NCBI RefSeq assembly: GCF_900607235.1
Contig: NZ_LR027849.1
Coordinates: forward strand, 434,001 to 498,000
Length of the DNA stretch: 64,000 bases
Source: Olivibacter jilunii
GTDB taxonomy: Bacteria > Bacteroidota > Bacteroidia > Sphingobacteriales > Sphingobacteriaceae
Reading direction: 5' to 3'
In this document: piece after piece, positions 1,951-20,792 of the stretch
Position numbering within the stretch: position 1 is the stretch's first letter
Layout of the letters: every line of letters begins with the position of its first letter
Program-made: the position numbers and the translations under genes
The notes under the pieces: model-generated
The model's database searches: none
Told to the model about the DNA's origin: nothing
Seen by the model: only the letters and a program-made list of their open reading frames with translations

Positions 1951-3354
1951 ATGTTTTTTCAACACATTTATGATAAGAGTTTATCACAGAGCAGCTATCT
2001 GATAGGCTGCCAAACAATTGGGAAGGCTATTGTGCTTGACGCCAAGAGGGACATCGATACCTATTTAGCGCTTGCTGAGGAAAATAACCTGACGATAACC
2101 CACATTGCGGAAACCCATATTCACGCAGATTTTCTTTGCGGATCACGCGAATTGGCTGCAGTGACAGGGGCAGAACTTTACCTGTCTGATGAGGGAGGAG
2201 CCGCTTGGCAGTACGAGTTTCCGCACATCGGTCTAAAAGATGGTGATAAAATTACTATCGGTAAACTTACATTAGACGTGATACACACACCCGGGCACAC
2301 ACCCGAAAGCATCAGCTTTCTACTTACAGATCATGCCGCAAGTGATCAACCTGTAATGATCTTCACAGGCGATTTCATATTTGTCGGCGATGTTGGTAGA
2401 CCTGATCTTTTAGAGAAGGCGGCCGGATTTTCCGGTACAACGGAGCGGGGTGTTCAACAGTTATACCAATCGCTTCGGAAATTTGCAGATCTTCCCGATT
2501 ATGTTCAGGTCTGGTCAGGACATGGGGCCGGTTCCGCTTGCGGTAAGTCGCTCGGGTCGGTACCGAGTTCCACCGTCGGTTATGAAAAAATCAGGAACTG
2601 GGCATTTCAATTATATGGAAATGAGGAAAAGTTTGCGGACTATTTATTGGCCGATCAACCTGAGGCACCACGATACTTTGCCATGATGAAGCGTCTCAAT
2701 AAGGAAAGGCGACCGTTGTTGGCAGCTATTCCTCCGCATCCGAAATTAACAAAAGAACAGTTCAAAGCCGCTTATGATCAAGGAATCCAAATTATTGATA
2801 CTAGGGATAAACGCCTCTTTGCTAAGGGATTTCTTTTGCAAAGCATTAATATACAGGCGAATAATTCATTTTCAACGTGGATGGGTTGGCTGCTGAGCTA
2901 TGAAGAACAATTCATGCTGATAGCGGATGACGAGCAAATGAGCGATTTGACGCGAAAATTAATGCGTATCGGCCTCGATAACATACTAGGTTATATATCA
3001 GATATATGTGATGTGGGTGTTGAGCTGCAAAAAGCAGATGTGCTCTCGCTGTCCGAATTCAAAAGTTACCTAAACAGGAACGATGTGCAGTTAGTAGATG
3101 TGCGGAGTGCTTCAGAATACCGTGAGGCACATATTGAAGGTTCCCATAATATTTTCGTTGGCACCTTGACAAGCAATCTGAACAAAATCGATAAAGATAA
3201 ACATTTAGTCGTTTATTGCCAGTCCGGCGATCGAGCTACCATAGCTCACTCAATTTTAATAAAAAACGGATTCAATAATGTAAAGTACTATACAGGAGGG
3301 ATGAAGGAATGGTTGGAAAACAAAGAGCCTGTTATAACAAAATCAGTTTTGTAG
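1951..3354 (+). CDS. CstB-like persulfide dioxygenase with two rhodanese domains
   Basis: A 467-aa fusion. Residues 1-250 are a metallo-beta-lactamase-fold dioxygenase with THIHADF, HTPGHTPES, FTGDFIFVGDVGRPDLL and SGHGAGSACG. These supply the His/His/Asp iron site of ETHE1-type enzymes; the sixth position of HxHxDH is Phe, as in several persulfide dioxygenase-rhodanese fusions. Residues about 260-355 form a rhodanese fold without an active Cys (pseudo-rhodanese). Residues about 365-460 form an active rhodanese with CQSGDRA. The order MBL, pseudo-rhodanese, rhodanese is that of staphylococcal CstB, which oxidises persulfide to thiosulfate. It probably works with the adjacent TauE and YeeE proteins in sulfide detoxification. 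Confidence 0.9.
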   Translation: MFFQHIYDKSLSQSSYLIGCQTIGKAIVLDAKRDIDTYLALAEENNLTITHIAETHIHADFLCGSRELAAVTGAELYLSDEGGAAWQYEFPHIGLKDGDKITIGKLTLDVIHTPGHTPESISFLLTDHAASDQPVMIFTGDFIFVGDVGRPDLLEKAAGFSGTTERGVQQLYQSLRKFADLPDYVQVWSGHGAGSACGKSLGSVPSSTVGYEKIRNWAFQLYGNEEKFADYLLADQPEAPRYFAMMKRLNKERRPLLAAIPPHPKLTKEQFKAAYDQGIQIIDTRDKRLFAKGFLLQSINIQANNSFSTWMGWLLSYEEQFMLIADDEQMSDLTRKLMRIGLDNILGYISDICDVGVELQKADVLSLSEFKSYLNRNDVQLVDVRSASEYREAHIEGSHNIFVGTLTSNLNKIDKDKHLVVYCQSGDRATIAHSILIKNGFNNVKYYTGGMKEWLENKEPVITKSVL

Positions 3355-3398
3355 CTGGGAGTGTACAAGAGCGCAAAATTAACTATAATTTATAAAAC

Positions 3399-3962
3399 AT
3401 GTTAGAACTTATTAAACAACCTTGGCCCTGGTACATTGCCGGGCCACTCATTGGCTTAACGGTTCCGATACTGTTAATTATCGGAAATAAATCCTTCGGT
3501 ATCAGCTCTTCACTGCGGCACATTTGCGCGGCATGCGTACCTGCCAATATCCCTTTCTTCAAATATAACTGGAGAAGAGAGTCGTGGAACTTGTTTTTTG
3601 TCGTTGGTATTCTTATGGGCGGCTTCATCGCTAAAAACCAGCTTTCTGATGCCGATCCGATTAAGTTAGATCCTCGGTTGGTATCAGAACTCACAGATTA
3701 TGGCATTACGGATTACAGCAGCTTAATACCTCATGATCTTATGAGTTGGTCAAGTCTCTTCACCCTGCGAGGTTTCATTATCCTCATATTTGGCGGATTC
3801 CTCATAGGTTTTGGTAGCCGCTATGCAGGAGGATGTACCAGCGGACACGCTATTATGGGGCTATCTAATCTACAATGGCCATCATTGGTAGCAACCATCA
3901 GTTTTATGGCAGGCGGTTTTATTATGGCTAATTTTATACTCCCCCTTATCCTAACACTTTAA
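3399..3962 (+). CDS. YeeE/YedE family sulfur transporter, half 1
   Basis: A 187-aa membrane protein. Conserved small-residue and Cys motifs of YeeE/TsuA thiosulfate transporters are visible: HICAACVP near residue 45 and GSRYAGGCTSGHAIMG near residue 145. The second motif carries the family Cys thought to relay thiosulfate through the membrane. The protein is about half the length of full YeeE proteins, and the next gene supplies a second half, a common split arrangement in Bacteroidota. It lies 44 bp behind the persulfide dioxygenase gene and is probably co-transcribed. Confidence 0.88.
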   Translation: MLELIKQPWPWYIAGPLIGLTVPILLIIGNKSFGISSSLRHICAACVPANIPFFKYNWRRESWNLFFVVGILMGGFIAKNQLSDADPIKLDPRLVSELTDYGITDYSSLIPHDLMSWSSLFTLRGFIILIFGGFLIGFGSRYAGGCTSGHAIMGLSNLQWPSLVATISFMAGGFIMANFILPLILTL

Positions 3963-3973
3963 TAAATATAAAC

Positions 3974-4468
3974 ATGCATTTAAAGATAATTGAAAGAAAT
4001 AATAACGAAGAGCAAAATAGGAGGGACGTCACTGAAAACGACTCAAGGCGTCGTTGGTATCCAAATTTTAAATATCTGTTAGTGGGCATTTTTTTTGGGA
4101 TTATATTCGTGAAATCCGAAGCGATCAGTTGGTTTCGTATACAGGAAATGTTCCGTTTGCAATCCTTTCACATGTACGGCATTATTGCAAGTGCCGTAGT
4201 TGTTGGTATAATATCTATAGGCATAATTAAAAGGTTTAATATCAAAACAATGGGTGGCGAGCCGATCGAATTTCAAGCAAAAAAATTCAATCGTGGGCAG
4301 TTGTATGGCGGGTTGCTCTTTGGATTTGGTTGGGCAATCACCGGAGCCTGCCCAGGCCCATTGTTTGCGCAAATAGGAACCGGAGCTCTTGTGATTGGAA
4401 TAAGCCTTTTGAGTGCTATATTCGGAACGTGGGTTTATGGCTTATTAAGGGATAGACTGCCACATTAA
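3974..4468 (+). CDS. YeeE/YedE family sulfur transporter, half 2 (DUF6691-like)
   Basis: A 164-aa membrane protein that starts 11 bp after half 1. A charged N-terminus of about 35 residues is followed by four hydrophobic segments. The motif GFGWAITGACPGPLFAQIGTG near residue 115 matches the C-terminal Cys motif of YeeE/YedE transporters. Together with the previous gene it likely builds one thiosulfate or sulfur-compound channel in the inner membrane. It is the last gene of the sulfur operon; the next gene is on the other strand. Confidence 0.85.
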   Translation: MHLKIIERNNNEEQNRRDVTENDSRRRWYPNFKYLLVGIFFGIIFVKSEAISWFRIQEMFRLQSFHMYGIIASAVVVGIISIGIIKRFNIKTMGGEPIEFQAKKFNRGQLYGGLLFGFGWAITGACPGPLFAQIGTGALVIGISLLSAIFGTWVYGLLRDRLPH

Positions 4469-4505
4469 GGTAAAGGCTTAAATAATAAGCTACTACAGTT
4501 TATCC

Positions 4506-5108
4506 CTATAAGATTACCTTTCGGAACGTCAGATTGATCCTCGGCCCCATGATCACGTTCGATTTTGCTATCCTATGTTCCCAGTGAAGTTGCAGATCGC
4601 CTTTCATGAGCAGAAGGGAGCCGTGCTGCAGCTTGATGGAGTAGCGACCGGTATGGTCGTCCTTCCTGCGGAAATCAAAGCTCCGTTCGGCTCCCAGGCT
4701 CAGGGAGGCTATTTCGGTTTTGCGGCCGGGCACCGTATCCTTGTCGGCATGCCAGGCCACCGAATCATTTCCATCGCGGTAGAGGTTCAGCAGCACGCCC
4801 TGAAAGGCCATGCCGGTAAAGGCCTCTATGCGCTGCCTTACCATCTGCAGTTCCGGCAGCCAGGGTATCGGTTCACGCCGGTCATCTGCCCTCAGCGGGC
4901 GGTCTCCGTACCATGCCGTCAATCTGGGCGTTACCACCTCCTTATCGTACATCTTAACTTTGGTCTGCTGCCAGGGCACATTATGCAATAAAAAAGTAAG
5001 CAGCGTATCCGCCTCCGGCCGTTCCAGAAAGCCTGGCGTATAATCCATCAGTTCCCGTGGCAGTACCAATTGCCGGTTATCATCAAACAATTTCCCCTGC
5101 ATCTCCAA
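4506..5108 (-). CDS. alkB: AlkB-like Fe(II)/2-oxoglutarate dioxygenase
   Basis: A 200-aa protein of the AlkB/ALKBH2-3 type that removes alkyl lesions from DNA bases by oxidation. Visible signatures are the iron ligands H and D in WHADKD, the distal His in HWEHRIAK and the 2-oxoglutarate-binding Arg pair in GPRINLTFR, plus the substrate-lid strand LLNLYRDGNDS. It lies 11 bp downstream of dnaE2 on the same strand, so it appears to be the last gene of the imuA-imuB-dnaE2 operon. This couples direct repair of alkylation damage to lesion bypass. Base composition matches the GC-rich mutasome genes. Confidence 0.92.
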   Translation of the reverse strand: MEMQGKLFDDNRQLVLPRELMDYTPGFLERPEADTLLTFLLHNVPWQQTKVKMYDKEVVTPRLTAWYGDRPLRADDRREPIPWLPELQMVRQRIEAFTGMAFQGVLLNLYRDGNDSVAWHADKDTVPGRKTEIASLSLGAERSFDFRRKDDHTGRYSIKLQHGSLLLMKGDLQLHWEHRIAKSNVIMGPRINLTFRKVIL

Positions 5109-5119
5109 TCAATTAAAAT

Positions 5120-8100
5120 TTACCTGAAATTACGTCCTTTCGGAAACAGCTCCAGTTGAGCATCAACCCGTACCTGCGTCCTTTTGTTTTTGGCAGGGAA
5201 GACATGGCCGTCTTTTTCATCGGCGGGCGAGAGTGTCCGCAGCTCGGCCTGCTTTCTTTCCTTCGGACCGAGCAGCGTGAGCAGCCCGGAGAGGTTGTAG
5301 AGCCTTTTGGCCACCACATGGGTAACCTGTCCCTCGCGCTGCAGTTTACCCTCTACCATCAACAGCTGCGAGTAGAGGATTTCCTTCCGGTACCGTTCAA
5401 AGAGACTCGCAAAGGCCACCAGGTTGGCCACGCCCGTTTCGTCCTCGATCGTGATGAAACAGACACCGCCCGCCGTTCCCGGGCGCTGCCGTACCAGTAC
5501 CAGTCCGGCCACCCGAACGGGCGTGCCATCGGGCCATCGGTCCAGTTCCCTCGTGGTCAGGATATCCCGCTCATAAAGCTGCCGCCGGATAAAACTCACC
5601 GGATGCGCCTTCAGCGAAAGTGCCAGCGAGCTGTAATCCTGCAGCACATGTTCCGATTCTGACATCGCCGGCAACCGCACCTTTTCTTCCGGTGTGCTCG
5701 CCGAAGGCTGCCCTTCAAAGATGCCCATGGGACGGTCATGGAGGGCCGACACCTCCCAGAGCGCCTGCCTGCGGTCCATGCCCATCGAGCGGAACGCATC
5801 GGCATCCGCCAGGCGCTCCAGCGAAGCGATGGAAACCCCTGCATCCGGCAGGAAATGGATATGCGTATAAGGTCTCTTCCGCGCCCGTACCAGCGCTTCC
5901 ATTTCCTCCCGGTTCATTCCCTTAACCTGCCTGAAACCCAGGCGCAGCGCGCAGTAGGGGCCTGTTTTCTCCTCCAGGGTATTGTCCCAATGGGAAAAGT
6001 TGACGTCAACGGGCCTTACCGTCACGCCATGCTCCCGCGCATCGCGCACAATCTGCGCCGGGGCATAAAAGCCCATGGGCTGGCTGTTCAGCAGCGCTGC
6101 GGCAAACACATCTGGGTAGTGATGCTTCAGCCAGCAGGAAACGTAAACCAAGAGGGCAAAACTGGCCGCATGGCTTTCGGGAAAGCCGTAGCTTCCGAAA
6201 CCTTCCAGCTGGCGGAACACCCTTTCGGCAAATTCCTTTTTATAGCCCCGTGATACCATGCCGTCGATCAGCTTCCTTTCGAACCGGCTCACCAGACCCT
6301 TCGCCTTAAAGGTGGCCATGCTGCGCCGCAGTTCATCCGCTTCGGCAGGGGTGAAGCCCGCGGCCACAATGGCGATTTTCATGGCCTGTTCCTGAAAGAG
6401 GGGCACGCCCAGTGTCTTGCCCAGAATCGCTTCCAGCTCGGGAGAGGGATATTCCACCTCCTCCTCACCGTTGCGCCTGCGCAGGTAGGGGTGTACCATA
6501 TCCCCCTGGATCGGGCCCGGCCGTACAATGGCCACCTCGATCACCAGGTCGTAAAAGTTCCGCGGCCGCAGGCGCGGCAGCATCGATTGCTGCGCGCGGC
6601 TCTCGATCTGGAATACCCCGATGGTATCGGCCGCGCTGATCATATCGTACACCTCGGGGTCATCCTGCGGTACGGTGGCCAGCGTCAGCTCCAGGCCGTG
6701 ATGTGCCCGTGCCAGATCAAAGGCCTTGCGGATGCAGGTCAGCATGCCCAGTGCCAGCACGTCGATCTTGAGGAAGCCCAGCGCATCGATATCGTCCTTG
6801 TTCCATTCGATGTTGGTGCGGTCCTCCATCCGTGCGTTGATCACCGGACACAGGTCGGTCAGTTTACCGTCCGTGATCACAAAACCGCCCGTATGCTGGC
6901 CCAGCTGGCGCGGAAAACCCATAAACTGCCGTGTCAGTTCCAGCACCTTTACCAGGTGAGGGTCCTTCGGGTTGAAGCCGTGCTCCGAAATGCGATCGCC
7001 CTCAAACCATTCGTCGGTAAACTCCCAGATGGAGCTCGACAGGCGGTTGATGGCATCCACCGACATGCCCATGGCCTTCGCCACATCCCGCACCGCGCCT
7101 TTCTGGCGGAGCTGGGTCACCGTGGCCACAATGCCCGCGCGGTCGCGTCCGTATTTTTCATAGATATACTGGATGATCTCTTCGCGGCGTTCGTGCTCAA
7201 AATCCACGTCAATGTCGGGCGGCTCGTTCCGGGCCGAAGAGATAAAGCGCTCGAAGAGCAGGTCAAACTTCGTCGGGTTCACCGCCGTGATGCCCAGGCA
7301 GAAACAGATGGTGGAGTTGGCGGCCGAGCCGCGGCCCTGGCAGAGGATGCCGCGCGAGCGGGCCTCCCGTACAATGTCATATACCGTAAGGAAGTAGGGC
7401 GCATAATCCATCTCCGCAATGAATTTCAGTTCGTGCACAATGGCCGATGAAACCTTTTCCGGCAGCGGATCACCGAAAAAGCCGTAAGCTCCCTGCCACG
7501 CCAGCCGGGTCAGTTCCTCCAGCGGCGTGCGTCCGTCCGGCATGATCTCCCTTGGGTACACATACTTCAGGCTGTCGAGGTTGAAGCGGCAGGCCTCCGC
7601 GATCCGCCGGGTGTTTTCGATGGCCTGCGGATATTTTCCAAAAAGGCGTTCCATCTCCCCGGCGGGCTTCAGGTAGCGTTCCGCATTCCCGTAAAGCAGG
7701 TAACCCGCATTGTAGATCGTTTTCTTTTCGCGCACACAGGTCACGATGTCCTGCAGCTGCCGCCGCTCGGGGCTGTGGAAATGCACATCGTTGGTGGCCA
7801 CCATCGGTATGCCGAAATCCGCTTCCAGTTCCGCTATGCGGTAGAGCCTTTTGGCGTCGCTGCCCCTGTACAGCCAGGAGGCCGCCACATAGAGTTGCCG
7901 GCCGAAGGCCTTTTTATATTCCAGCAGCTCCCTTCTGAAATCCTCTCCGAAATCAAATTCGTCATCAAGATCAACGGGAGGCAGGGAAATAAAGATCATG
8001 CCCTCTGCATAGCGATATACATCGGCCTTATAGAGCTCGCATTTCCCCTTTTCCGTCCGCCGGTTGCCTTCGGTCAGCAGCGCCGAGAGACGGGCGTAAG

Positions 8101-8350
8101 CATCCCTGTCCGTCGGGTAGGCCAGCAGGGGAGGGCCGTCCACAAGATTGAGGCGTGCGGCAGGGATGATACGCAGACCGTATTTTTTCGCAGCGCTGTG
8201 TGCCCGCACAATACCCGCCAGGGTGTTGTGGTCGGTTATGGCCATGCTCCCATAACCGAGCGCCGCGGCCTGTTCCACCAGTTCCTCCAGGTGCGAGGCA
8301 CCGCGGAGGAAGCTGAAATTCGAAGTGACCTGTAATTCCGTATAATCCAT
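5120..8350 (-). CDS. dnaE2: Error-prone DNA polymerase III alpha subunit DnaE2 (ImuC)
   Basis: A 1076-aa polymerase of the usual DnaE2 length. The N-terminal PHP domain begins with NFSFLRGASHLEELVEQA and contains AITDHNTLAG. The C-family polymerase core contains CQGRGSAANS and the catalytic Asp motif PPDIDVDFEHERR (about residue 380). HhH and OB-fold regions follow. It performs translesion synthesis together with ImuA and ImuB. The extreme C-terminus reads AQLELFPKGRNFR and includes a QLxLF sequence like the beta-clamp-binding pentapeptide. The start is 6 bp after imuB, so the genes are co-transcribed. Confidence 0.96.
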   Translation of the reverse strand: MDYTELQVTSNFSFLRGASHLEELVEQAAALGYGSMAITDHNTLAGIVRAHSAAKKYGLRIIPAARLNLVDGPPLLAYPTDRDAYARLSALLTEGNRRTEKGKCELYKADVYRYAEGMIFISLPPVDLDDEFDFGEDFRRELLEYKKAFGRQLYVAASWLYRGSDAKRLYRIAELEADFGIPMVATNDVHFHSPERRQLQDIVTCVREKKTIYNAGYLLYGNAERYLKPAGEMERLFGKYPQAIENTRRIAEACRFNLDSLKYVYPREIMPDGRTPLEELTRLAWQGAYGFFGDPLPEKVSSAIVHELKFIAEMDYAPYFLTVYDIVREARSRGILCQGRGSAANSTICFCLGITAVNPTKFDLLFERFISSARNEPPDIDVDFEHERREEIIQYIYEKYGRDRAGIVATVTQLRQKGAVRDVAKAMGMSVDAINRLSSSIWEFTDEWFEGDRISEHGFNPKDPHLVKVLELTRQFMGFPRQLGQHTGGFVITDGKLTDLCPVINARMEDRTNIEWNKDDIDALGFLKIDVLALGMLTCIRKAFDLARAHHGLELTLATVPQDDPEVYDMISAADTIGVFQIESRAQQSMLPRLRPRNFYDLVIEVAIVRPGPIQGDMVHPYLRRRNGEEEVEYPSPELEAILGKTLGVPLFQEQAMKIAIVAAGFTPAEADELRRSMATFKAKGLVSRFERKLIDGMVSRGYKKEFAERVFRQLEGFGSYGFPESHAASFALLVYVSCWLKHHYPDVFAAALLNSQPMGFYAPAQIVRDAREHGVTVRPVDVNFSHWDNTLEEKTGPYCALRLGFRQVKGMNREEMEALVRARKRPYTHIHFLPDAGVSIASLERLADADAFRSMGMDRRQALWEVSALHDRPMGIFEGQPSASTPEEKVRLPAMSESEHVLQDYSSLALSLKAHPVSFIRRQLYERDILTTRELDRWPDGTPVRVAGLVLVRQRPGTAGGVCFITIEDETGVANLVAFASLFERYRKEILYSQLLMVEGKLQREGQVTHVVAKRLYNLSGLLTLLGPKERKQAELRTLSPADEKDGHVFPAKNKRTQVRVDAQLELFPKGRNFR

Positions 8351-8356
8351 AAACCG

Positions 8357-9859
8357 TTAAGCAAAAAAACCATGCATGAACCATTCCGGCTCGCCCTCGC
8401 CATCATAATGCCCCGATCGGAAGAGCCAGTAGCGCGCGCCCTCTTCATCCTCCACGCGGTAGTAATCGCGCTGCGGACCCGTCTCGATCCACCATTCCCT
8501 TTCGATGCGCTCGGGCCCGTCCGCCTTTTTCACCTTATGCCTTTTCCCTTTGTACACAAAAACCATGGGCGGGTAATCCGGCACGGGAGCCGATACCCGG
8601 ATGGGCTCCGGCTCGGGCAGCAGGTAAATCGGGCGCGGCTCATCGATAGGCCAGGGGATGGCCGGCCGTTCGTCATAAGAGGTGGCAGGCCTGATGGAGC
8701 GCTCCGGCCAGTGGTGCTCATCCGGCAGATAGCGGCGGATGGCATCGTGGCCGGCACGCGTGGCGATCCGGTCGAGCAGATTGCCGATCTCCGTACTTTC
8801 ATAGACACCGCCATCGTTCCACAACTTCTCCTGTCGGGCATCCAGATCCTCCACAACGGGCGCTTCCAGTATAAAAAGCTCGATGCCCAGACCGGGGGCA
8901 ATGGTACCGATCTTTTCGCCGAACAGGCGGAAGAGGTGATGCCGGTCACGCGAAGGGCGGCCGGTGCCTATCTGGATCTGCTGTACCTTACCATCTATAC
9001 GGAAAGACCGGAAAACCGCCTTCCGCAGCCCCATCCCATCCTCCAGCAGATTCCGTGTAAGCATTTCCAACAACGTCTCCAGCGCCATTTCAATGGCCTT
9101 TCGCGTCCGTACCGGCTCCAGACAGGGCAGGCGTTCCGCATAAGGTGCCGGCGGCCGCACCGGTTCCAGCGGTTCGGGAGAGGTGCCCAGCGCCTGACCG
9201 ATGCGGTTGAGCAACTGCTCACCGAAACGGCGGCGCAGTACCGTACGGGGCATGCCGATAAAATCACCGATGTGGGTAAGGCCCAGCTTCTGCATGCGTT
9301 CCGTTATGGCCCGGTCCAAACGCAGCGCGGCAGGGGGGAGGGGCATCAGGGCCGCCAGCTGCCCACCCGGAGCAACCACGGCGCCATCCGTTCCATAACG
9401 GGCCACGGCCCATGCCGTTCCGATGGTGTCGGCCATGGCCATCCGCACATCATAGCCCGCGCCTTTCAGTTTCCCGGCAATCTCTCCCATATAGGGCCTT
9501 TCCCCTTTCCATAGGTGGGTGCAGCCGCTCGCATCCAGTATCAGCCCGTCCGGCAGATCGACGCCCGCCATCGGCGTATAGCGCAGACACTGTTCGGCCA
9601 GACGCTTCAGTAATTTTTCCGCCCGGTGGGGCTCATAATCGAAGACCTCCAGATCGGGATAAAGGGCACGCGCATCGGCCAGTACCATATTCACGGTAAC
9701 ACCTTCCGCCGCTGCCCCGGGGCTCAGGGCCCGGATCACCATGCGCCCCCGCTCGGGCGCGGCCAGTACAAAAGCCTTTCCGCGCAGTTCCGGCCGGTGG
9801 ATGGCCAGGTCATCCGTGAGCAGATGACGGAATGCTATCGCAACATATCTTTTCATCAT
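8357..9859 (-). CDS. imuB: ImuB, Y-family polymerase-like mutasome scaffold
   Basis: A 500-aa protein with the Y-family polymerase fold. At the N-terminus, where DinB has its DMD metal site, this protein reads YVAIAFRHLLTDDL, so the first catalytic acidic residues are missing, as is typical of ImuB. Palm and little-finger regions follow (GLILDASGCTHLWKGE; HIGDFIGMPRTVLRRRFGEQL), then a C-terminal extension ending in WFMHGFFA. ImuB normally bridges the clamp, ImuA and DnaE2. It overlaps imuA by 4 bp (ATGA), which indicates translational coupling. Confidence 0.94.
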   Translation of the reverse strand: MMKRYVAIAFRHLLTDDLAIHRPELRGKAFVLAAPERGRMVIRALSPGAAAEGVTVNMVLADARALYPDLEVFDYEPHRAEKLLKRLAEQCLRYTPMAGVDLPDGLILDASGCTHLWKGERPYMGEIAGKLKGAGYDVRMAMADTIGTAWAVARYGTDGAVVAPGGQLAALMPLPPAALRLDRAITERMQKLGLTHIGDFIGMPRTVLRRRFGEQLLNRIGQALGTSPEPLEPVRPPAPYAERLPCLEPVRTRKAIEMALETLLEMLTRNLLEDGMGLRKAVFRSFRIDGKVQQIQIGTGRPSRDRHHLFRLFGEKIGTIAPGLGIELFILEAPVVEDLDARQEKLWNDGGVYESTEIGNLLDRIATRAGHDAIRRYLPDEHHWPERSIRPATSYDERPAIPWPIDEPRPIYLLPEPEPIRVSAPVPDYPPMVFVYKGKRHKVKKADGPERIEREWWIETGPQRDYYRVEDEEGARYWLFRSGHYDGEGEPEWFMHGFFA

Positions 9860-10596
9860 GTACCGGTATGTGTATAGACTTTCTTTTTAACGGGGGCATC
9901 GGGCGCAATGTGCCGGAAGTTACCGGCCTTCCAGCACAGGTGCCAGGTGCCGGGCCTTCCGTTGCGTATCTTCCCGAGCTGCACTTCCCACAGCGGGTGG
10001 CCGATGCCCGGCAGGCGTCCGTCCTGCAGGCTGCTCAGGGGGCGTATGTTCCAGCGCGAGACGCAGGCCAGGTTATTCAGGCGCCGCGGGCGATAGCGGT
10101 GCAGAAAGCCCGTAACACGGCTCTGCTCCACGGCCAGCTGCAGGCGGCGCGAGGCCGTCAGGTCCAGGTCGCGGATTTCGCCCACCACAGCGGCGAGCGA
10201 AGGGCACTTAAGCGCCTCCTCCAGCACCCAGAGGGCATCCTTTTCCCCATGCAGGTTGATGAAGATCACCCGGTGGGGCTCAATGCCGAAACCCAGCAGA
10301 GAGGGCGGAAACAAACGCTTGCCGATGCTCACCCAGAGGCAGGGACCCTTCCGCTGCATCAGGCGGCCGATCAGGCAGGCGATGAAGCCGGTAGATGCCG
10401 CCGCTTCCTCCGCACTGTTACTGATAAATTCATGGATGGCCCCGAGCGGAAAGGTACCCATCGGGAAGGCCTTTTCCATCGGCCCCAGATCCCCGGGCAG
10501 TTCATCGCTTCCGTTCGGAGCGGAAAAACCCTCCGCTGCCAGAATCATTTTCCGCAGCTCCTCCACCACTGACTTTTTCTTCAACGAGGTTTCCAT
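9856..10596 (-). CDS. imuA: ImuA-like RecA-fold mutasome protein
   Basis: A 246-aa protein with the ImuA/SulA-related RecA-like core: MGTFPLGAIHEFI at the start of the fold, CLWVSIGKRLFPPSLLGFG in the first strand-helix region, and VVGEIRDLDLTASRRLQLAVEQSR. No classical Walker A motif is seen, as in other ImuA proteins. The C-terminal half reads like the ImuA tail (WEVQLGKIRNGRPGTWHL). It is the first gene of the mutasome operon; 70 bp separate it from the divergent LexA-like repressor. Confidence 0.9.
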   Translation of the reverse strand: METSLKKKSVVEELRKMILAAEGFSAPNGSDELPGDLGPMEKAFPMGTFPLGAIHEFISNSAEEAAASTGFIACLIGRLMQRKGPCLWVSIGKRLFPPSLLGFGIEPHRVIFINLHGEKDALWVLEEALKCPSLAAVVGEIRDLDLTASRRLQLAVEQSRVTGFLHRYRPRRLNNLACVSRWNIRPLSSLQDGRLPGIGHPLWEVQLGKIRNGRPGTWHLCWKAGNFRHIAPDAPVKKKVYTHTGT

Positions 10597-10612
10597 ATCC
10601 CGATTTTATTTT

Positions 10613-10620
10613 TAATTTTG
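10613..10620 (+). promoter_or_regulatory. Candidate -7 box of the XRE-S24 repressor gene
   Basis: TAATTTTG fits TAnnTTTG. It overlaps the left end of the palindrome at 10616-10638, which suggests autorepression. Confidence 0.4.
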
Positions 10621-10638
10621 TCACCATTGGTAACAAAA
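10616..10638. promoter_or_regulatory. Near-perfect palindromic operator between imuA and the LexA-like repressor
   Basis: A 23-bp dyad with half-site TTTTGTnACCA centred at 10627. Only positions 7 and 17, plus the unpaired centre, break the symmetry. It sits in the 70-bp gap between divergent starts and overlaps a -7 box, as expected for the operator of an XRE-S24 repressor controlling both directions. Confidence 0.6.
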
Positions 10639-10666
10639 TGAATGTCATCAATAATAACAATACAAA

Positions 10667-11464
10667 ATGGAAGCTGCAAAAGTTTTTTTCAGAAGCAATC
10701 TCCGGTTTCTCCGCAACCGCAAAAAATACAGTCAGGAACACCTGGCACAGCTGCTGGGCCTTACACGCAGTAAATATACCGCACTGGAGAACGGGCAGAC
10801 GGAGAATCCGCCACTGGTCGACCTGATCCGGTTGTCCGAGTTCTTCAGAATCCCCGTGGATTACCTGCTCCGGCAGGACCTGGGCCGCTGGAGCGAATAC
10901 GAACTGCGCAAGCTGGAAACGGGGGCAAAGGAATATATCAACGGGAAGAACCTGCGCGTACTTTCCATTACCGTTACGCCCGATAATAAGGAAAACATGG
11001 AGTATGTACCCGTAAAGGCCAAGGCAGGCTATGCCGCGGGCCATGCCGATCCCGAGTTTCTGGCGGCGCTGCCCAAATTTTCGCTGCCGAACCTTCCGGC
11101 CGGGGGTACCTACCGGATGTTCCCCACTACGGGCGATTCGATGCTGCCCATTCCCGAGGGGAGCGATGTGGTGGCCCGTTATGTGCAGGACTGGAAAACC
11201 CTGAAGCCCGACAGCCTGTGCATCGTTATCCTCAAAGGTGAACGGGATTTCGTGTTCAAGCAGGTTACCCTGCAAGGGGACGGTACCGTGCTGCTCCGCT
11301 CGCTCAATAAAAATTATGCGCCCTATACCGTAAGGGTGGATGAGGTGCTGGAAATCTGGCAGTATGTAAAGCACCAGACCGATAAGCTGCCCGAAGCCGG
11401 AACCGACCTGCAGGAAATCAGGCAGCTCCTTCTTGATGTAAAAAAGCGGGTCGAAAAAATATAA
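10667..11464 (+). CDS. XRE-S24 (LexA/CI-like) repressor of the mutasome operon
   Basis: A 265-aa protein. Residues about 10-65 form an XRE helix-turn-helix (YSQEHLAQLLGLTRSKYTALENG). The C-terminal half is an S24 peptidase-like domain with a candidate Ala-Gly cleavage site (A120-G121; A124-G125 is an alternative), the Ser motif TGDSM (S158) and the Lys FVFKQ (K198). This is the LexA/UmuD Ser-Lys dyad, so RecA-stimulated self-cleavage is plausible. It is divergent from imuA, with an intervening palindrome. An in-frame upstream start is not visible; the ATG at 10638 is in another frame. I infer that it is the damage-responsive switch for imuA-imuB-dnaE2-alkB. Confidence 0.9.
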   Translation: MEAAKVFFRSNLRFLRNRKKYSQEHLAQLLGLTRSKYTALENGQTENPPLVDLIRLSEFFRIPVDYLLRQDLGRWSEYELRKLETGAKEYINGKNLRVLSITVTPDNKENMEYVPVKAKAGYAAGHADPEFLAALPKFSLPNLPAGGTYRMFPTTGDSMLPIPEGSDVVARYVQDWKTLKPDSLCIVILKGERDFVFKQVTLQGDGTVLLRSLNKNYAPYTVRVDEVLEIWQYVKHQTDKLPEAGTDLQEIRQLLLDVKKRVEKI

Positions 11465-14154: not shown

Positions 14155-14964
14155 CTAATAAACCTTATTAATAACCTCCATAGCCTTTTTGTATGCTACG
14201 GTAGTTTCTTTGAACTGCTCTTTGAAAAAATAAAATAGGGCGATTTTATATTGTGGTATTTCCAAAAATATAAAATCGTCAATCGTATGGAAGAAATGAA
14301 AATGTTGGTTTGAGGTTTTGAAAATGAGTAAGGAATTGACGTGGTTTGCTTTATCCTTTACCGCTAGGCGTTTGTGAGCGTATCGAATTGTAGACAATAT
14401 CTTTGCAGGTGAATATCCTTTGTTAGGTAGTAGCAAGTATAAAGGAAAATCACTTAGATATGGAATATGTTTTCCATTTTTTGGACTTAGAAATTTTTTG
14501 GAAATATTCATGATTTGAAATTTATAATCAATAGTTTCAAGCCAGCGAATTATATGTTGCAGTTCGAAAATATTGAAAGCAAAGTCTTTCTCAAATCCTT
14601 CGTGAAACAGTTTTTGTATATACCTTTCCAAACTATTGAGCAATTCAGCATTGCATGTTGAGCAGGTTGGAATCGTTGCTTTATTGTACGTTACTGTGTG
14701 CCCGTTTACGGTGATATCAAAATATTTTTTTGTATCTTTTCGAAAGCACCACCGTGGTATAATATGCTCTCTTGTTATGTTAAGATGGGATCCACAAACC
14801 ATACAGATGAGATATTCGTTATTTTTGACAACTTCTTCATTTACGCGCAATACATAATTGTGATAAACGAATTCCATCACTGAGAGATTGTTTCTTCTGA
14901 TTATACCACGAAGTATCCTTAGTTTTGCATTTAGTCCTTTTAACTCGACAGAATTATTGCTCAT
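14155..14964 (-). CDS. HNH-like zinc-binding protein of unknown function
   Basis: A 269-aa protein. Residues 54-105 carry a treble-clef/HNH pattern: CMVCG, then EHIIPRWCF, then CSTCN. The Cys pairs (C54/C57, C101/C104) would hold zinc, and H67 with N105 fits an HNH core. The remainder is helical and not recognised. It overlaps the upstream 65-aa membrane protein gene by 4 bp (ATGA), so the two are coupled. A nuclease role in a defence context is possible, but no trained family is evident to me. Confidence 0.7.
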   Translation of the reverse strand: MSNNSVELKGLNAKLRILRGIIRRNNLSVMEFVYHNYVLRVNEEVVKNNEYLICMVCGSHLNITREHIIPRWCFRKDTKKYFDITVNGHTVTYNKATIPTCSTCNAELLNSLERYIQKLFHEGFEKDFAFNIFELQHIIRWLETIDYKFQIMNISKKFLSPKNGKHIPYLSDFPLYLLLPNKGYSPAKILSTIRYAHKRLAVKDKANHVNSLLIFKTSNQHFHFFHTIDDFIFLEIPQYKIALFYFFKEQFKETTVAYKKAMEVINKVY

Positions 14965-15342: not shown

Positions 15343-15419
15343 AAAATAAATTTCAGACGATGGGTTTATCTCACATGAGAATAGACGCAATAACTTTTTT
15401 TCATGTAGCGAAAATTGAT

Positions 15420-15427
15420 TATATTTG
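15420..15427 (+). promoter_or_regulatory. -7 box for the cyclase-like/sce7725 operon
   Basis: TATATTTG is an exact match to TAnnTTTG. It lies 36 bp before the ATG at 15463, which argues for that ATG as the start and against the in-frame TTG at 15415. Confidence 0.5.
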
Positions 15428-15462
15428 AGCCAACAATCAAAGCCCAAATAAGCCTATTATCT

Positions 15463-16317
15463 ATGCACGATATTGCACCTTATATTTTTCATAATCGAGC
15501 CGTTGCTTTTCTAGATGTTTTGGGATTTCAACAATTTCTAGGCGAATTTGATGCGGAGGCTAGGCAAAATCGGAAGCGCCTACCCGAAGAAAATGAAGAC
15601 CCTATATTGGGAGGTAGGTTCACCTCTCAGAAAGCGAACGAATTTATTGCAACATTTAAAAATGCCATAGAGCAGTTAGATAAAGAAAAGTACAGATACT
15701 ACCTGTTTTCAGATAATATCTGTATCACCTCCATTCAGGAGACCACCCCGAATGATTTGCAAGACCTGTTACTGGTCATCACTAAATTATATTTTGATTT
15801 CGCGAAAAAAGGATATTTCCTTAGGGGAGGAGTGGATTACGGACTTTTTATTGACGAAGAAACTATTGCAGTAGGAGTACCATTAGCCAACGCGTATTTG
15901 CTTGAATCGAAAATTGCGATATATCCTCGCATTGTGTTGTCCACAAATATTGTCGATCAATTCCAAGCATATAATCTGTTGGGCGAAAAGGAATATGACT
16001 ATCCCTTTGCTGATGTTATGATCGAAGGCGAAGACGTGAAGTATTTAAATATTTTTTTGCAGGTCTTTCAAAGTGACTATGTAGAGGATAAAAGACTTTT
16101 TTTTACTGATTTTAATCAAGTAATTGGTAACCATTTAGAAGAGAATAGACAAAACGAGCGTATATACGAAAAGTACCAGTGGCTTGCCGAGCAGTTTAAT
16201 ATATTTATTGACAAGTTTGTTAACGAACTTGCTTTTCAGGATAGTAACTTCGACCCCGAGAGCGACGAAGATTTTCTCGAATTTGTGAAAAAACAACGGA
16301 TAAATTATGGCAATTAA
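15463..16317 (+). CDS. Nucleotidyl-cyclase-like protein (class III fold suspected)
   Basis: A 284-aa protein counted from the ATG at 15463. The pattern resembles a class III cyclase core: FLDVLGF (D18, metal position), YYLFSDNICITS (D84), FLRGGVDYGLFI, then GVPLANAYLLES followed by PRIVLS, which parallels the GDxVNxAxRMES segment. The transition-state Arg is Leu here and the Asn is shifted by one residue, so activity is uncertain. It overlaps the next gene by 11 bp. Proteins starting with this FLDxLGF motif are usually left as hypothetical. It may make or sense a nucleotide signal for the adjacent sce7725/sce7726 pair; this is inference. Confidence 0.65.
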   Translation: MHDIAPYIFHNRAVAFLDVLGFQQFLGEFDAEARQNRKRLPEENEDPILGGRFTSQKANEFIATFKNAIEQLDKEKYRYYLFSDNICITSIQETTPNDLQDLLLVITKLYFDFAKKGYFLRGGVDYGLFIDEETIAVGVPLANAYLLESKIAIYPRIVLSTNIVDQFQAYNLLGEKEYDYPFADVMIEGEDVKYLNIFLQVFQSDYVEDKRLFFTDFNQVIGNHLEENRQNERIYEKYQWLAEQFNIFIDKFVNELAFQDSNFDPESDEDFLEFVKKQRINYGN

Positions 16318-17395
16318 CCTCATATACATGCCAACATTTAGGGCACGCCAACAGGAAAACCTCGTATTACGAAGCTTCAAGTTTGATGGCCACATGTACC
16401 CTATGTTAGAAATCATCAAAGAGTATGATCGAAAGAGAGACTCTGATAAACAATCTCCATTTCACGAAATCTACTTAGACCTTATTGAGACCATACAATC
16501 AGAGCGAGTGTTTGTTGACTTACCTTTATACCTAAAAGAACGGGCGTCAATGAAAAATGAGGTTATCGCATTCAGTCGTTCCGTCATTGCCAGTAAAGAA
16601 CGTCGTACAAAATACTTACAATCATTGGGAGAAGCTAGCCCAAAGATGATCCCAGTAATATCATCCTATTTACACAAGACCGGGGAAATTGATACCCTGC
16701 AATGGCAAGAGGCACATCTGCGTCCAAACTTTCCGTCCATCGCTTTTAGAGTAATGTACAATCAATTCAATGAAGATTGGCCAATTATCAACCAGCTTGC
16801 CACAGCAGTAGATTTTATCATACTCGATCTTGACAATATTGCACCATATCCTAGTCCATCAGTCAGACAAATCATGAATGCATGGAGATCTTTTAGTACC
16901 TGCCCCAAGATTATACTACGCAGCGCTATAAACACCGATATACAAAACGTTGGATTAGATCATGGCGAAGTGGTGTTTGATATCGATAACGGCTTAATAG
17001 ATACCTATAAACAACCCCTGCTTGGCCAATGCTTCGGCGATTATGCCGGTATTAAAAAAGATGATTTAACCTCCGGCGGAGCAATTAGTCCGGGTTTTCT
17101 TTTCTATGATGCCGTAGATAATCAATTCGTAGGCTTCAAGGGTAGTGTAAAAGAGCTTTCCGAATTTAAGAATACTATTGTGCCAGCGGTTATAAATTCC
17201 GAAGCTGCGAAGCGCATGCAAGCAAGTGGACTTCCGTATTTAGACGATCGAAATTGGGGCTGGCAAACGTTGCTCCGCATTCAGCACGAGGGCGAAACCG
17301 GAAAAAGCCAGGCAAAATTTAAACGTATTGCTATGGAACATTATCTACATTGCATTCGCGTGAAAATTGAAGCGGGAGAGCTTAAGACTTCTTAA
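16307..17395 (+). CDS. sce7725 / Beta protein (PF14350) family protein
   Basis: A 362-aa protein. The opening YMPTFRARQQENLVLRSF, the following PMLEIIKEY, the central AVDFIILDLDNIAPYP and the segment GQCFGDYAGIKKDD near residue 245 are the layout I know from phage-type Beta family and sce7725 family proteins. No catalytic assignment exists to my knowledge. In other bacteria sce7725 genes lie beside sce7726 genes, and that is also the case here, with 4 bp overlap of the convergent ends. The start overlaps the cyclase-like gene by 11 bp, so translation is probably coupled. Confidence 0.75.
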   Translation: MAINLIYMPTFRARQQENLVLRSFKFDGHMYPMLEIIKEYDRKRDSDKQSPFHEIYLDLIETIQSERVFVDLPLYLKERASMKNEVIAFSRSVIASKERRTKYLQSLGEASPKMIPVISSYLHKTGEIDTLQWQEAHLRPNFPSIAFRVMYNQFNEDWPIINQLATAVDFIILDLDNIAPYPSPSVRQIMNAWRSFSTCPKIILRSAINTDIQNVGLDHGEVVFDIDNGLIDTYKQPLLGQCFGDYAGIKKDDLTSGGAISPGFLFYDAVDNQFVGFKGSVKELSEFKNTIVPAVINSEAAKRMQASGLPYLDDRNWGWQTLLRIQHEGETGKSQAKFKRIAMEHYLHCIRVKIEAGELKTS

Positions 17396-18141
17396 TCTTG
17401 GTAGATCAATAGCGGATCCACATTTGTGTTAAAAAAAAATTGCAAATCTATAGGCAATATGTGCTTCCAGTGTGCCAAAACAAAAGACCAGCGAGCTTCA
17501 TAACGCTTTTTCAAGGCAATTTTTAAACGCTCGTTGATTTCTTGAGCAGTATATTCGCCCATAATTTCTGTGTATACAGCTGTCTTAAAAAGGCTGAGCC
17601 GTTCTTTCTTGGTAAGTACTTCCAATTGGGCAAGAGGATTAAGATAGGGACTTTTAATGGCAGACCGGTATTCCACACGCTTTTTCCCTTCAAAATACCA
17701 GATTCCGTAATGCGCTGGTACTAAACATTCCGTTTCACGCAGGTGCTTGGCATCAATTACTACCGTATTATATTCAAATATTCTATGATAATCATCACTC
17801 TGTTTCCCCAAGCGCCTCAAAGTGTCAATTTTCGACTTTACCTCAAAGCATTTCGAATCACCGTTAATTACCACAAAATCCGCTCGGCTGTTTTTTGCAC
17901 GCACTTCAAATGCAGCAACGTATCCCTTCTTCCTGAACGTAGTGGCGAGCTTATATTTTAAAGACTCTTCACCATGATAGTTTGAAAAAAGAGCTTTATT
18001 AATTTTAAGATGCAGTTGGTATTTAGACAAACCGTCCGTCTTACATTTTCCGTAACAGGCCTCTACTATTTGCAGTAACTGTTGACGGTAATGCAGGGTG
18101 TTATAAGATTTTGCCAGTGCAGTATAATCTACTTTGCCCAT
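17392..18141 (-). CDS. sce7726 family PD-(D/E)xK nuclease-like protein
   Basis: A 249-aa protein. Residues 75-105 carry a PD-(D/E)xK core: the Asp in RADFVVING (D88) and the FEVKS motif (E100, K102), preceded by the strand VAAFEV. The C-terminal part is helical and basic. I place it in the sce7726 family, whose genes accompany sce7725. It is convergent to the sce7725-like gene and shares 4 bp with it. A nuclease in a defence or toxin-type pair is the likely role, but its target is unknown. Confidence 0.78.
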   Translation of the reverse strand: MGKVDYTALAKSYNTLHYRQQLLQIVEACYGKCKTDGLSKYQLHLKINKALFSNYHGEESLKYKLATTFRKKGYVAAFEVRAKNSRADFVVINGDSKCFEVKSKIDTLRRLGKQSDDYHRIFEYNTVVIDAKHLRETECLVPAHYGIWYFEGKKRVEYRSAIKSPYLNPLAQLEVLTKKERLSLFKTAVYTEIMGEYTAQEINERLKIALKKRYEARWSFVLAHWKHILPIDLQFFFNTNVDPLLIYQD

Positions 18142-18296: not shown

Positions 18297-20750
18297 TTAT
18301 CCTGCTGCGGTTATGGCAACTTCGACATTATCATCTTCTGTCTGCTTAGTGATAAGTTTCTTTAAGTTTGTGGAATGAAAGCCATCAAAATATTCAATAA
18401 TATCTATTGTTTCCAATGCGATATTCCTCAATGCGTCATCAGTAATGAAGTTACTTTCATCCAAATGTTGTGTGTTTCCGTGAGAAAACCCATCACATAA
18501 CTTATTTATGTTTGAGAGTTTGTCTTGTATATTATCTTTTGATATTTTTCCTACTGAAGTATCAGGCAACGTTTCAAAGTCTATTATATCTGAAATGAAG
18601 TATTCCAGGCCAGCAGATTGATTAGCGTTGGATTTCGTTGTCAATTGAGCATATTTGAAACTAAAAAATGTTTCTAATATTCGACGGATATAATTCGGCA
18701 AGTATTTTCTTGCTTCTTCATAATTCGGTGTTTCATCACTTGAAAATTCGAGAAGACTTTCCAACATATAAAAATAGGGGCTTTGGAAATTTTGTAATGA
18801 CTTGGGTAAGTCGCTTATACACCCCCTATTTATAAGGTAACAGGATTTTGAAGTTTTTACTCGGAAATTTGGATTCAGAAACTTCATAAACAACAAATTG
18901 TGGCTTAGGATAAACAGTTGCCTATAATCTTTAAACTCCTTGTGTATCAAATAGGCTGTTTGATATAAGCGATTGTCATCGAGGCTTGAAATTGGATCGT
19001 CAATAACGATGATAGTATTGCCTTTATCTTTAACTTCCGTCGTGACCTTGCTCAGGAAATACGCAAAGGCCAAAGCTGTTTTCTCGCCATCGCTCAAAGT
19101 ATTGCGTAGTCGCTTCCGTATTTTTTCCGAATTATTATACTTAATTAAAATGTTCTCATTATCGTCCTCTTCATTAAGGTCGATGGTGAAATGATTGATG
19201 CCGAGTTTCTCCAAATATTCCCCTACTTTTTTTGCCTCCAACTTTAAAGCGCGGAGTCTCTGCATCTTCGCAGTCGAATGTTGAATTAGTTCATTGTTGT
19301 ATGTTGCGATTTGCGAGCTTAGTTCGTGGTATTTTTTTACGTTATTTTTGTCTTCGTGACCGTTCAATTCCAAGATTATTAGTTTTGAATAGAGGCGTCT
19401 GATGTCAGTTTCTAGTGTTTCGGGGCTTTTTCTCCGGGCTTGAAGGGTTGAAATCAATTCGTCCTTGAAATCAGTCAATTTTTTAATATCCTCGTTATAA
19501 TTTTCAATTGCCGATTGGATGTTGGTTAACTCAAAATCTATAATCTTTGAAGAATTATTTCCTTTGTCATCAACGAGATCTGTTAGCGTCTTTATCTGGG
19601 AAGTTAATCCGTCTATCCGGACGTCAGGCATCTTGTTCTCCAGCATGGCATTGTACTTTGTGGCTTCCTGTTGCAAGGTGGTTTTTGAATCCTTGTTAGC
19701 TGTACAAAAATTTTGAGCGGTGGCCAGTTGACGCGTATGATCGGCTATGTTTTGCTTAAATTCTTCATAGCTGCTATCAAAGTATTCCCCAAATTCCTTT
19801 ATTAAATCAATAATGGTGTTATTGAGATTAGAATTACATAGAGGGCAAGTTGTTTCGTCGGTCTGATTTGATTTCTCTAAAAGTAATTTTCCGAATCTGT
19901 ACCAAGGCTCTATCTTACTTATATCTTCCTCGTTGACTTTGGCTTGAAAAGTTTCAATTTTGCTTTTTAAAGTGGTTACAGCTTTTTCTCTGGCGGTAGT
20001 ATTAAGTAGGGTTTTCAAAGACGGAAAATCCAATGAAATTTGACTGAATGAAACATTTCCTAACTTTTCTATATCCGCGATAAGGGCTGCCTGGTCTTTA
20101 CTGATTTGATATTCAGATATTTTTTGCCTGATAGCTAACTCTAAATCAGATTTATTTTCCGTAGGAATGCTTTGTACATCAGGGAAATTTGGATTTCTGA
20201 GATTGCCACTTGGGAATGTTTCCCTAAATTTTTTGTTAAATTGCTGCTTGATGGCTTCAAAACTGCTTTTATATTCCTCTTGCTCTGATTCACTCTTGCC
20301 TTTGTCTAATTCTTTTTTCTCGATGATTTCGTTTAATTCCACGATTTCAGGATCTTCCAATACCGTTTCTGCCACATTGAATTTCTGAATTTTTCCTTTC
20401 CTTCCGTCAAAAACATGGTCGGCAACAAAATTGGAATTGAAAACGTAAATACTCTTATTATTGTTGTGACCGTCTCCGGTAAGGGGATAGAGTAATGTTT
20501 CCTTGTCGGTGCAGAGGAATTTAACTTTAGCATCATCAGAGCATTTTAAATCGTCAAATAAATCTTGTTTCTTTTCGGACGGGAAGTTCTGGTTTTTAGC
20601 AATCAAGTTGAAAAGATTGGACAGAGTGGACTTTCCGCTACCATTAAATCCGAAAATCAAATTGTACTTTCTAAAATCTTCACTGCAATTCCACGAGAAA
20701 TTATCGAAGATACTCAACTTCTTAATTTCGATAAATTTTAGGATACTCAT
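18297..20750 (-). CDS. AAA_13 ATPase, RloC/PrrC-like putative tRNA anticodon nuclease
   Basis: An 817-aa protein with an ABC-type ATPase split by a long coiled coil. Walker A GFNGSGKST is at residues 34-42, the signature LSDGEK at 552-557, Walker B IIVIDDP at 580-586 and the H-loop His at 617. The coiled-coil insert (about 140-515) bears CPLC at 302-305, a zinc-hook motif as in Rad50 and RloC. The C-terminal part has R689xxxE693 and H757, the R-E-H arrangement of PrrC/RloC anticodon nucleases. Such proteins cleave tRNA during phage infection or DNA damage. The nuclease call rests on these three residues and the layout; AAA_13 also contains non-nucleases. Confidence 0.72.
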   Translation of the reverse strand: MSILKFIEIKKLSIFDNFSWNCSEDFRKYNLIFGFNGSGKSTLSNLFNLIAKNQNFPSEKKQDLFDDLKCSDDAKVKFLCTDKETLLYPLTGDGHNNNKSIYVFNSNFVADHVFDGRKGKIQKFNVAETVLEDPEIVELNEIIEKKELDKGKSESEQEEYKSSFEAIKQQFNKKFRETFPSGNLRNPNFPDVQSIPTENKSDLELAIRQKISEYQISKDQAALIADIEKLGNVSFSQISLDFPSLKTLLNTTAREKAVTTLKSKIETFQAKVNEEDISKIEPWYRFGKLLLEKSNQTDETTCPLCNSNLNNTIIDLIKEFGEYFDSSYEEFKQNIADHTRQLATAQNFCTANKDSKTTLQQEATKYNAMLENKMPDVRIDGLTSQIKTLTDLVDDKGNNSSKIIDFELTNIQSAIENYNEDIKKLTDFKDELISTLQARRKSPETLETDIRRLYSKLIILELNGHEDKNNVKKYHELSSQIATYNNELIQHSTAKMQRLRALKLEAKKVGEYLEKLGINHFTIDLNEEDDNENILIKYNNSEKIRKRLRNTLSDGEKTALAFAYFLSKVTTEVKDKGNTIIVIDDPISSLDDNRLYQTAYLIHKEFKDYRQLFILSHNLLFMKFLNPNFRVKTSKSCYLINRGCISDLPKSLQNFQSPYFYMLESLLEFSSDETPNYEEARKYLPNYIRRILETFFSFKYAQLTTKSNANQSAGLEYFISDIIDFETLPDTSVGKISKDNIQDKLSNINKLCDGFSHGNTQHLDESNFITDDALRNIALETIDIIEYFDGFHSTNLKKLITKQTEDDNVEVAITAAG

Positions 20751-20784
20751 AGCTGGTTAGGTCTGATAACATTAAAACGTTTTT

Positions 20785-20792
20785 CAAATTTA
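20785..20792 (-). promoter_or_regulatory. Candidate -7 box for the RloC-like gene
   Basis: On the minus strand TAAATTTG matches TAnnTTTG, 35 bp upstream of the start at 20750. It would allow expression apart from the XRE/SNase genes. Confidence 0.4.

Follow-up and report, generated by a model that had tools for sequence, protein, structure and literature searches.

A predicted RloC-like ABC ATPase with a zinc hook and a PrrC-type catalytic triad in Olivibacter jilunii

Introduction

Does a gene of the bacterium Olivibacter jilunii encode an anticodon nuclease, and if so, to which of the known kinds does its product belong? The gene lies in a 64,000-nucleotide stretch (positions 434,001 to 498,000 of contig NZ_LR027849.1, assembly GCF_900607235.1; hereafter designated as the window, the coordinates of which are used below). 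We regard the product as probably a stand-alone RloC-like nuclease of the PrrC/RloC kind, combining an ATP-binding cassette (ABC) ATPase with a HEPN-like RNase domain, which would cleave tRNA in the anticodon loop and serve in phage defence; this proposal draws on sequence comparison and structure prediction. The initial annotation of this DNA had placed such a candidate at 18297-20792. The open reading frame itself was recovered at 18297-20750, while the extension to 20792 only adds the TAAATTTG box upstream. The features of the gene are as follows.

18297..20750, reverse strand: RloC-like protein with ABC ATPase, coiled coil, zinc hook and HEPN-like RNase domain (817 amino acids, ATG start)
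20625..20651, reverse strand: Walker A, residues 34-42, GFNGSGKST (alignment; N36, G39 and K40 invariant)
19836..19847, reverse strand: C302PLC305, zinc-hook motif at the tip of the coiled-coil insert (alignment and AlphaFold2 loop)
19080..19097, reverse strand: ABC signature, residues 552-557, LSDGEK (alignment)
18972..19013, reverse strand: Walker B and D-loop, residues 580-593, with D584, D585, P586, S589 and D591 (alignment)
18900..18902, reverse strand: switch histidine H617 (invariant in 55 sequences)
18672..18686, reverse strand: R689-X3-E693, first part of the predicted RNase triad (alignments with relatives and PrrC)
18480..18482, reverse strand: H757 in FSHGN, predicted catalytic histidine (invariant in 50-55 sequences; aligned to the SH of PrrC)

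ATPase head and zinc hook

The 817-residue protein matched AAA_13 in Pfam with an E value of 2.9e-67 and PDC-S06 in PADLOC with an E value of 2.9e-56, both models covering residues 1 to about 702, and more weakly the PrrC model of PADLOC (E value of 5.9e-14). No specific model for this protein was found in NCBIfam. Walker A, the signature, Walker B and the switch histidine, which are the ABC motifs of RloC, are all present in the open reading frame, so that the ATPase is as complete as had been claimed. The size is also within the range of 658-897 residues given for RloC (PMC2610378).

The AlphaFold2 model of the full protein, built from 55 input sequences with a mean predicted local distance difference test score (pLDDT) of 79, comprises a Rad50-like head and long antiparallel helices. 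C302PLC305 sits exactly at the residues indicated by the initial annotation, in a loop (residues 297-312) between the long helices and flanked by helices 274-296 and 313-323, as expected for the tip of a coiled coil. As in RloC, the insert bearing the CxxC hook splits the ATPase head. We consider it hardly credible that CPLC is a coincidence rather than a zinc hook and that the RNase is controlled in some other way: CxxC occupies the same column in all of the 155 relatives having the coiled-coil insert, and is missing only from PrrC and from a single short member that lacks the insert. Altogether, the alignments and the predicted model show a Rad50-type ABC head split by an antiparallel, CxxC-tipped coiled coil and followed by a helical domain with R-X3-E and a downstream His. 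In the model, R689 and E693 are on helix 678-699 and H757 ends helix 738-757.

The predicted RNase triad

R-X3-E with a downstream His can occur by chance in any single protein, and we thus assessed its conservation across relatives. These were collected from whole genomes of the phylum, plasmids, phages, and contigs of GTDB and IMG/VR scanned with the help of an alignment; a search of genome contigs with the single sequence found no relatives, which were recovered by the alignment-based scan. In the alignment of 162 relatives, most of which share about 20% identity with the O. jilunii protein, His occupies the column of H757 in 161 sequences, Glu that of E693 in 155 (Asp in the remaining 7) and Arg that of R689 in 156. 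The other 6 bear R-X3-E a few columns away; the loss of Arg in these sequences was rejected in favour of an error in alignment register. R689, E693, H757, C302 and C305 all fall in columns that do not vary across an alignment of 8 sequences (21-25% identity), and R689 and H757 are the only invariant columns when the C-terminal domain alone is compared across 50 sequences with 15-38% identity to the O. jilunii protein.

The triad was then compared with that of PrrC, represented by the Bacteroidota genes found by the PADLOC model and the Escherichia coli genes from hsd loci. The profile of the RloC-like sequences, from which PrrC was excluded, and the PrrC profile gave one continuous alignment (E value of 7.2e-17) covering the ABC head, IDDPISSLD, the switch histidine, R-X3-E and SH. 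The C-terminal profiles alone scored 30.6, whereas 200 PrrC profiles with permuted columns averaged 9.5 and reached 17.0 at most; the cut point was taken from the joint alignment and introduces a small dependence. When hhalign was run with the profile of the three-member subfamily described below, R and E were covered and H was not; the broader profile covered all three. Thus, R689, E693 and H757, which are exactly at the positions initially assigned, align with R-X3-E and SH of PrrC as the initial annotation had proposed, and the misalignment that would speak against this assignment was not observed.

The Foldseek search with the whole chain found the best matches in Rad50, SMC, Lamassu LmuB and retron PtuA, as would be expected of a Rad50/SbcC-like ATPase that is catalytically silent or acts on DNA, for instance in repair or as a sensor of the Septu/Lamassu type paired with a separate nuclease. 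We regard this explanation as improbable, since the conservation of R, E and H throughout the family, in a domain that otherwise diverges, points to an active site. Septu/PtuAB was rejected on the triad and on the lack of an adjacent PtuB.

Spacing between Glu and His

E693 and H757 are separated by 63 residues (X63). This is longer than in PrrC, as had been noted initially, with 31-34 in PrrC of Bacteroidota, and longer than the 36-47 in most relatives. In the FastTree phylogeny, the O. jilunii protein grouped with two sequences with a support of 0.999, namely L041 from a metagenome-assembled genome of Holosporales (33% identity over nearly the full length, spacing 53) and L121 from an IMG/VR contig (30% identity over nearly the full length, spacing 62). 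Both carry the same hook and triad, and their neighbouring genes are entirely unlike those in O. jilunii. In the region 2352-7511 of the L121 contig, the gene is located just behind a large terminase gene of phage type, like a defence gene borne by a prophage.

The trio is nested in a clade of 23 members with a support of 0.992, which contains every sequence with a spacing of at least 52 except L191 (55). The spacing is 52-68 in most of the members, and six are shorter (44-46 as aligned and about 48 after correction of the register by eye). In most members of a subgroup from phage contigs within this clade (L173, L176, L192, L193, L194 and L198), the N-terminal region is longer and a WER motif overlaps R-X3-E. 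As the closest relative has a spacing of 53, we take the spacing as a loose mark of the clade, and the additional residues resemble a variable segment that contains a short helix. The suggestion of a distinct subtype in the initial annotation therefore has some support, in that nearly all long spacers fall in one clade, but the spacing varies inside it. The O. jilunii protein is a divergent branch of the known RloC-like kind with an unusually long catalytic spacing.

One may speculate that the 23 sequences form an ABC-HEPN class of defence nucleases of their own, in which the additional residues between Glu and His define an RNA target or trigger different from those of RloC and PrrC; we hold this to be rather unlikely. 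Similarly, a nuclease of the same architecture may cut other RNA upon phage infection, such as mRNA, rRNA or tRNA outside the anticodon loop. HEPN RNases do vary in target, RNase LS and LsoA cutting mRNA (PMC3710099), and the divergent C-terminal domain and the longer segment could shift the substrate. We nevertheless consider this unlikely, and prefer cleavage in the anticodon loop.

Predicted function

The RNase activity and its substrate are inferred by analogy with the relatives. In RloC of Geobacillus, the tRNase activity depends on each of R692, E696 and H737 and is repressed by the hook (PMC2610378). Following the characterised relatives (PMC2610378, PMC3874168, PMC3710099), the ATPase head and the hook would hold the RNase silent in a dimer, and phage infection or DNA breaks would alter the conformation of the ATPase or the hook. 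The C-terminal domain may then cleave tRNA in the anticodon loop independently of metal, leaving a 2',3'-cyclic phosphate, and the resulting arrest of translation would keep the infected cell from making phage.

The C-terminal domain modelled alone is mainly helical (pLDDT of 85), and the top Foldseek probabilities were for the toxins of HEPN-MNT pairs (6m6u_G, 0.66; 7bxo_F, 0.54; E value of about 1). This ranking is in keeping with the assignment of PrrC and RloC to the HEPN superfamily (PMC3710099).

Several points weigh against an RloC-like anticodon nuclease. The Foldseek search with the C-terminal domain gave no significant match in PDB, so that the HEPN fold is weakly supported by structure comparison. 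X63 is outside the X36-52 of the RloC motif, published as R-X3-E-X36-52-H by Davidov and Kaufmann (PMC2610378), and we therefore call the protein RloC-like and not RloC proper. The RloC of Geobacillus was not found on plasmid pHTA426, and the comparison with the Geobacillus and Acinetobacter proteins is by published description instead of direct alignment. Finally, the role in phage defence is proposed from the family and the genomic setting only; the apparently strain-specific location of the gene described below and the position of L121 beside a phage terminase support it.

RloC-like proteins are common in defence surveys, and to our knowledge very few of them have been tested by experiment; a sequence search of PDB returned no solved structure of PrrC or RloC. 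A deep branch in which the catalytic spacing has changed and the body has diverged, and for which two relatives can be traced, offers a compact test of how far the anticodon nuclease and its control by the hook reach.

Genomic setting

From about 13.2 to 22.0 kb, the window is A+T-rich (34-39% GC), and hardly any DNA of these 8-9 kb around the gene is matched in close relatives, except for a staphylococcal-nuclease-like gene with relatives elsewhere. This would fit a strain-specific island. At its edge, no tRNA gene was found, and a search for flanking direct repeats returned short AT-rich matches, none of them clear. Among 400 genomes of the order, no close relative of the protein was detected at an E value of 1e-20, and the host genome has a single AAA_13 protein.

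The neighbours comprise an sce7726-family gene (155 bp downstream of the RloC-like gene on the same strand), a Beta_protein gene, the nuclease-like gene and a small helix-turn-helix (HTH) gene. The sce7726-family gene and an HNH-like gene (14155-14964) are close enough to suggest a separate nuclease for a Rad50/SbcC-like ATPase, but the latter is 3.3 kb off with opposite-strand genes in between. Moreover, across about 196 related loci, none of the candidate partners (sce7726, Beta_protein, staphylococcal-nuclease-like, HTH, HNH-like and cyclase-like genes) was seen again as a neighbour. Thus, the RloC-like gene most likely acts alone.

The initial annotation had also assigned the gene its own promoter at the following box.

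20785..20792, reverse strand: TAAATTTG, proposed promoter (indistinguishable from chance)

The box exists, but the general motif TANNTTTG is no more frequent across the window than expected by chance (59 observed against 63.3 +/- 7.6 expected), and TTTG is not present 17-23 bases upstream of the TAAATTTG copy, so this assignment was not upheld. A promoter is possible somewhere in the 102-bp gap upstream of the gene.

Other features of the window are listed below. It also carries SusC/SusD and TonB genes, consistent with a host in Bacteroidota.

16307-18141: Beta_protein (PF14350) and sce7726-family genes, overlapping tail to tail by 4 bases
15415-16317, forward strand: 300-residue protein, its gene directly followed by the Beta_protein gene, with FLDVLGF, SDNI and GGVDYG motifs, resembling the palm of class III nucleotide cyclases and matching only PHROG families of unassigned function
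14155-14964, reverse strand: HNH-like protein (CxxC...EHIIPRW) matching phrog_10503 (E value of 3e-53)
5120-11464: SOS mutagenesis cassette of the imuA-imuB-dnaE2 type and a LexA-like S24 regulator, with 59-61% GC in surroundings of about 43%, pointing either to acquisition from a distant source or to a strong local composition bias

Comparison with known systems

PDC-S06 and AAA_13 are broad models that span several branches and have no assigned function. PrrC, which is encoded in the type I restriction-modification loci of E. coli, shares the ABC core and R, E and H with the O. jilunii protein in one continuous profile match. In contrast, at about half the size, PrrC has neither the coiled coil nor the hook, and it is encoded between hsdS and hsdM. 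We rejected the O. jilunii protein as PrrC (about 340-416 residues, no coiled coil, type I locus) on its 817 residues with the insert and on its neighbours: no restriction-modification gene was found in the annotated neighbourhood and no HsdR in the host genome.

RloC, known from Geobacillus kaustophilus and Acinetobacter baylyi ADP1, agrees with the O. jilunii protein in the ABC ATPase, the coiled coil, the CxxC insert, the size range and the triad of R-X3-E and SH. RloC is rarely linked to restriction-modification (PMC2610378, PMC3874168), in agreement with the lack of such genes in the annotated neighbourhood of the gene described here. The difference is in the catalytic spacing, E-X63-H compared with X40 in Geobacillus, and the O. 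jilunii protein is on a divergent branch. Two further traits of RloC are the excision of the wobble nucleotide by its anticodon nuclease and repression by zinc via the hook. Judged by its anatomy, the protein would work like RloC.
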